Translations under genes and position numbers: made by a program
The notes under the pieces: generated by a model
What the model was told of the DNA's origin: nothing
Databases searched by the model: none
The model's input: only the letters and a program-made list of their open reading frames with translations
Shown here: piece after piece, positions 21,431 through 21,601 of the stretch
How positions within the stretch are numbered: the first letter of the stretch is position 1
Layout of the letters: each line of letters opens with the position of its first letter
Origin: Candidatus Bathyarchaeota archaeon
GTDB taxonomy: Archaea; Thermoproteota; Bathyarchaeia; Bathyarchaeales; Bathycorpusculaceae
DNA length: 64,000 nucleotides
Assembly: GCA_022865885.1 (NCBI GenBank)
Contig: JALHSQ010000121.1
Coordinates: 1 to 64,000 of the forward strand
Reading direction: 5' to 3'

Positions 21431-21601
21431 ATGGCTAAATGTCCGAAATGTGGAACAGTAGTTGCAACACCTAAGAAGAAGTGGACAATGGCCGGACGCC
21501 CATCCAAAGCTGGAAAAAGAACACAGTTAGAAATAGGCCTTTTCGACTGTCCAAAGTGCAAGAAAGCCTTCCGAGAAGTGCTGAGCAAGAAGAAGATCTA
21601 G
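21431..21601 (+). CDS. Small zinc-ribbon protein with Cren7-like core
   Basis: A 56-residue basic protein. CPKC at residues 4-7 and CPKC at 40-43 form a two-knuckle zinc ribbon. Between and after them the sequence KKKWTMAG, then LEIGLF and KKAFREVL resembles the beta-barrel core of the crenarchaeal chromatin protein Cren7, where W, IGLF and FR occur in the same order. It has 14 Lys/Arg in 56 residues. A DNA- or RNA-binding role is likely by inference; a ribosome-associated zinc protein is the main alternative. The strong RBS and single-gene unit fit high expression. Confidence 0.72.
   Translation: [56 protein letters not shown]

Follow-up and report, generated by a model that had tools for sequence, protein, structure and literature searches.

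A four-cysteine zinc-ribbon relative of Cren7 in Bathyarchaeota, a probable nucleoid protein in histone-bearing genomes

Our analysis of a 64,000-nucleotide stretch of bathyarchaeal DNA (here, the window) reveals an intact gene of 56 codons whose product is almost certainly a homolog of the archaeal protein Cren7. We regard this product, a member of the Cren7/zinc-ribbon lineage, as a probable nucleoid (chromatin) protein that would act as a monomer. Most likely, it would bind the minor groove of DNA alongside histone and Alba. The 56-residue protein is small and strongly basic, with a pI of about 10.2, a net charge of +12, 16 lysines and arginines, and only three acidic residues. The original prediction had described two CPKC knuckles, a core in the order KKW, IGLF, and FR, and a strong GGAGG ribosome site. 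The translation contains every one of these motifs (knuckles at C4/C7 and C40/C43, KKW at residues 16 to 18, IGLF at 35 to 38, and FR at 47 to 48), and the ribosome site is found ahead of the ATG and kept in relatives.

Comparisons with related loci indicate that the open frame is a real gene. A scan of genome contigs returned 110 related loci, nearly all labelled Bathyarchaeota, of which 80 were kept; an alignment of 67 sequences (66 relatives plus the window protein) has 16 invariant columns. In example comparisons, DNA changes cluster at the third codon position (4/3/23 and 7/3/33 changes at positions 1/2/3), and the protein is therefore under selection. An antisense open reading frame was ruled out by an internal stop on the minus strand, which has no other remarkable feature. 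Upstream of the gene by about 50 nt lies the sequence GGAAAGTCTTTTATCC. Of the relatives with inspected upstream DNA, most have an GGAAAGTnTTTTAT element and GGAGGA in matching positions. The conserved upstream element is probably an archaeal BRE/TATA promoter; scans for sigma-70 promoters and terminators are uninformative for archaea. The features are listed in Table 1.

Table 1. Positions of the gene, its elements, and its neighbors in the window
Feature	Position	Strand	Evidence or remark
Lhr-like helicase gene	18223..21102	-	
BRE/TATA-like promoter element (putative)	21368..21383	+	Conserved upstream of relatives
Ribosome-binding site GGAGGA	21419..21424	+	7 nt before ATG; conserved in relatives
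56-aa zinc-ribbon Cren7-like protein gene	21431..21601	+	Translation, homologs, profile comparison, predicted fold
First zinc knuckle C4-P-K-C7 (putative)	21440..21451	+	Both Cys invariant in 67 sequences
K16-K17-W18-T19-M20	21476..21490	+	Equivalent to Cren7 K24, W26, intercalating L28 (Met in 67/67)
A21-Q32 loop between first two predicted strands	21491..21526	+	Equivalent to Cren7 beta3-beta4 loop, 5 residues longer
I35-G36-L37-F38 and D39	21533..21547	+	D39 at Cren7 K42 position
Second zinc knuckle C40-P-K-C43 (putative)	21548..21559	+	Altered in 13/67 relatives
F47-R48	21569..21574	+	Equivalent to Cren7 F50-R51; invariant
Signal peptidase I gene	21745..22452		
Sso10a-like winged-helix gene, 96 aa	22549..22839	+	HTH_45 E 3.7e-16; NF053610 Sso10a 59.2 bits vs cut-off 60
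TATA-binding protein (TBP) gene	23148..23717	+	Pfam TBP E 7.8e-62

Three tests beyond the match of the single sequence agree on homology to Cren7. Residues 13 to 52 match the Pfam Cren7 model (PF11520) at an E value of 0.003 and 17.8 bits (15.8 bits genome-wide), below the model's cut-off of 25 bits; one relative scores 18.9 bits. A direct sequence search of the PDB gave a weak Cren7 match (E 0.24 to 0.63), which we do not count as proof. When a profile of the bathyarchaeal family was aligned by hhalign with one of 17 classical Cren7 proteins, the score was 32.1 (E 2e-6). This exceeded all 200 column-shuffled profiles in which the cysteines were kept (mean 10.2, maximum 23.2). The agreement of the core with the order of the Cren7 DNA face, as had been proposed, is thus beyond chance, and a coincidental ordering of KKW, IGLF, and FR is ruled out by the shuffles. 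Short Cren7 proteins with four cysteines link the two groups: their profile matches the bathyarchaeal family at E 5e-23 and classical Cren7 at E 1e-20. In addition, phylum-wide searches reach the same small proteins from either side. With the Cren7 and bathyarchaeal profiles, respectively, G115:C73 is found at E 7e-13 and 5e-15, and G246:C68 at E 3e-13 and 2e-13; G371:C168 is also common to both searches. These bridging proteins combine both knuckles with the loop of classical Cren7. They score about 50 bits, above the Pfam Cren7 cut-off, and their E values against the window family range from 1e-13 to 1e-15.

The predicted structure points the same way. Given no input but the bathyarchaeal alignment, AlphaFold predicts the Cren7 fold (pLDDT 90.7): the model's top and single convincing match in the PDB by Foldseek is the Cren7 chain 6a2i_A, with a probability of 1.00, a TM score of 0.65, and 35% identity. 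The E value of this match is modest (0.096) because the protein is small. Structure prediction had been suggested as a check on the proposed relationship, and it retrieved Cren7 first, not a ribosomal zinc ribbon; together with the proteins that bridge both families, it upholds the description of the product as a zinc-ribbon relative of Cren7.

An argument can be made that the product is a zinc ribbon of the usual ribosomal or RNA-binding sort, in which the order of the core motifs is coincidental, given that generic zinc-ribbon models in Pfam score at least as high as the Cren7 model on the single sequence. Yet the generic matches span one knuckle only (about 10 to 12 residues), the ribosomal S27ae model reaches 13 bits against a cut-off of 54, the shuffled profiles fall short of the Cren7 score, and the top fold match is Cren7. 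We consider this alternative extremely improbable, and a ribosomal or RNA zinc-ribbon identity was rejected on the model scores and on a fold search that returned no convincing ribosomal chain.

Most of the residues with which Cren7 contacts DNA (PMC5042384, PMC8927968) are retained. Among the 67 sequences, the equivalents of Cren7 K24, W26, I38, and R51 (K16, W18, I35, and R48) are invariant, the K31 position is R or K throughout, and the F41 position is F or Y in 66; Met in place of the intercalating Leu28 is a conservative change. The exception is the K42 position, a lysine important for affinity in Cren7, where the family has D in 42 sequences, E in 16, Q in 4, N in 3, and G and K in 1 each (acidic in 58 of 67). 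Replacement of this lysine by Gln lowers the DNA affinity of Cren7 about ninefold (PMC8927968). The DNA face is thus preserved, but affinity and bending geometry may differ from those of Cren7.

The mechanism is likely to resemble that of Cren7. Two CPxC knuckles, one at the beta1/beta2 turn and the other at the beta4/beta5 turn, would hold one zinc ion, and this putative site would replace the hydrophobic core that stabilizes classical Cren7. A three-stranded sheet would enter the minor groove through K16, W18, L33, I35, F38, and R48, with M20 wedged between base pairs in the manner of Cren7 Leu28 so as to bend the DNA. The long basic loop (GRPSKAGKR) and the lysine tail would grip the backbone, and inside the cell the protein would act jointly with histone and Alba. 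We infer zinc binding, DNA binding, bending, and abundance. Counting against a nucleoid role are the score below the Pfam Cren7 cut-off, the modest Foldseek E value, the acidic K42 position, the small residue that the family has at the position of Cren7 Y49, and the ability of zinc ribbons to bind RNA and proteins as well.

The cysteine pattern of the family is consistent with zinc binding. C4 and C7 never vary, and C40 and C43 are both kept in 54 of 67 sequences; in the remaining relatives, the second knuckle takes CPxGH, CSKHG, HCG, or CCG forms, some of which could retain a His ligand. The genome from which the window derives has three stand-alone copies: the window gene, one on contig C20 that is 95% identical, and one on C49 that is 70% identical. 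A fourth copy of the domain, on C189, has a C-terminal coiled coil. The assembly has a contamination value of 7.6%, but strain contamination is an unlikely source of the C20 copy because another genome, JAOULW01, has both a C20-like gene with TBP upstream (L006) and a window-like gene (L013) in different neighborhoods. In 21 relatives (L005, L007, L010-L017, and others), a second, diverged zinc Cren7-like gene of the YKTWELVAPFPDKKMRITVT type lies directly downstream; it is absent from the window.

The gene neighborhood raises the question of a link to transcription. In the window, the Cren7-like gene is divergent from the Lhr-like helicase gene and is followed in order by the genes for signal peptidase I, the winged-helix protein that resembles the Sso10a chromatin family, and TBP. 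Seventy related loci extend 2 kb or more downstream, and the signal peptidase is linked in 50 of them and TBP in 48; the Sso10a-like gene has no match in related loci and is local to the window. The C20 paralog (G000:C20:1924-3296, L002) stands directly after a TBP gene and has a convergent Alba gene downstream, as does its counterpart L006, and TBP ends 143 to 168 nt upstream of the second paralog in L002, L006, and L051. In the window genome, the coiled-coil copy adjoins TFB. These neighbors (TBP, Sso10a-like, Alba, TFB) fit a role in chromatin or transcription without proving one. The protein could accordingly be, rather than a bulk nucleoid component, a DNA-binding factor of moderate copy number that acts locally or in connection with transcription, such as one that joins TBP/TFB at promoters. 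The recurrent proximity to TBP and TFB favors this reading, as does the acidic K42 position, which suggests a weaker general grip on DNA (PMC8927968). However, neighborhood is weak evidence of function, paralogs with degenerate knuckles were found with none of the three neighbors tested, and a short, basic, multicopy gene whose promoter and ribosome site are both strong resembles that of an abundant nucleoid-associated protein. We therefore judge a transcription factor of this kind unlikely. There is a somewhat better, though still doubtful, chance that in Bathyarchaeia several zinc-stabilized Cren7 paralogs form a set with histone, Alba, and Sso10a-like proteins, a subset being tied to TBP/TFB, such that a Cren7-type minor-groove bender and TBP act jointly on promoters in an archaeon that has histones.

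A nucleoid protein of this type would share its cell with histones. In the window genome we find one histone-fold protein and several Alba matches; the histone-fold match (G000:C189:31949-32131, L085) sits within a 147-aa open frame whose true start is probably internal. Co-occurrence with histones had been put forward as a check, and in a sample of the window's order, 26 of 27 genomes with the family at E <=1e-20 also carry a histone. The zinc Cren7 type therefore does not replace histones here. This coexistence in Bathyarchaeia makes a division of labor between histone and Cren7-type packaging testable.

Previous work bears directly on how new this protein is. Kaur, Iyer, Subramanian, and Aravind (2018; PMC5906684) argued for a zinc-ribbon ancestry of Cren7/Sul7. 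They reported orthologs in both crenarchaeota and bathyarchaeota that have two to four cysteines, and they described fusions to FtsZ, CdvA-like, and GIY-YIG domains. The expectation that a zinc-stabilized Cren7 relative would be a new type of archaeal chromatin protein consequently falls; the window protein belongs, on good support, to a class already known and does not found a new one. The family shares with the published zinc-bearing Cren7 and Cren7Znr proteins the Cren7 core, two to four cysteines placed at the beta1/beta2 and beta4/beta5 turns, occurrence in bathyarchaea, and a GIY-YIG-like fusion. Both marks of the clade, Cren7 homology and cysteines at these two turns, are present in the window family. 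What our study adds is a subfamily with a DNA-facing loop longer by five residues, Met at the intercalating Leu, and an acidic K42 position, along with genomes that carry several paralogs and nearly always a histone as well, and a recurring link to TBP genes. In the parts of the main text of PMC5906684 that we consulted, we found no multicopy paralogy, histone co-occurrence, or TBP linkage, and neither Hocher 2022 (PMC7613761) nor a 2024 review (PMC11894787) has a mention matching zinc or Bathyarchaeia.

Comparison with characterized proteins places the family in a series. It is like classical Cren7 (PF11520; PDB 3KXT, 3LWH, 6A2I) in strand order, size, basic charge, predicted fold, and the K-x-W-x-[LM] / [IV]-G-L-F / F-R interface, but differs in having four zinc-type cysteines, a loop equivalent to beta3-beta4 that is five residues longer, Met for Leu28, and D/E at K42, and in lacking the C-terminal DDYPI tail. 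The short four-cysteine Cren7 proteins of other Thermoproteota (L118-L125, L167-L171) have both knuckles at the same positions and are matched by both profiles; unlike the window type, they have the classical loop LAPKGRKG, Leu at the intercalation site, and, in most, K at K42. Sul7d/Sso7d is likewise small and basic, binds the minor groove, and has a similar class of fold (PMC5906684), yet it has no cysteines, is confined to Sulfolobales, and gave no sequence match to the window protein in our searches. Taken together, the window type, four-cysteine short Cren7, and classical Cren7 form a series in which the sequence passes clearly from a zinc ribbon to the Cren7 barrel without zinc, which supports the published view of a zinc-ribbon origin for Cren7.

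Kaur et al. (2018) also predicted a function as a DNA anchor in chromosome segregation or cell division. Fusions of the domain to coiled coils or to two transmembrane segments (L004, L181, L187, L049) could be read in this way, as could the CdvA-like and FtsZ fusions reported in PMC5906684. The window protein, though, is a stand-alone domain of 56 aa whose neighbors are not division genes, and we find an anchoring role very unlikely for it.

The domain recurs in several longer proteins. L004 and L181 have a zinc Cren7-like domain followed by a C-terminal coiled coil, the gene adjoining TFB in the window genome, and L187 (408 aa) has an N-terminal coiled coil, a Pro-rich linker, and a C-terminal zinc Cren7 domain. 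In L049 (3731-4159), two transmembrane segments predicted by eye precede the domain, and the product is a possible membrane-anchored DNA binder. Four proteins of about 250 to 290 aa (L176, L178, L179, L185) carry the domain at the C terminus, and their N-terminal part resembles the GIY-YIG (URI) fusion described in PMC5906684. Finally, L175 and L184 join the zinc Cren7 domain to an N-terminal helical, possibly winged-helix region and to a long Lys/Arg tail that recalls the tails of linker histones.
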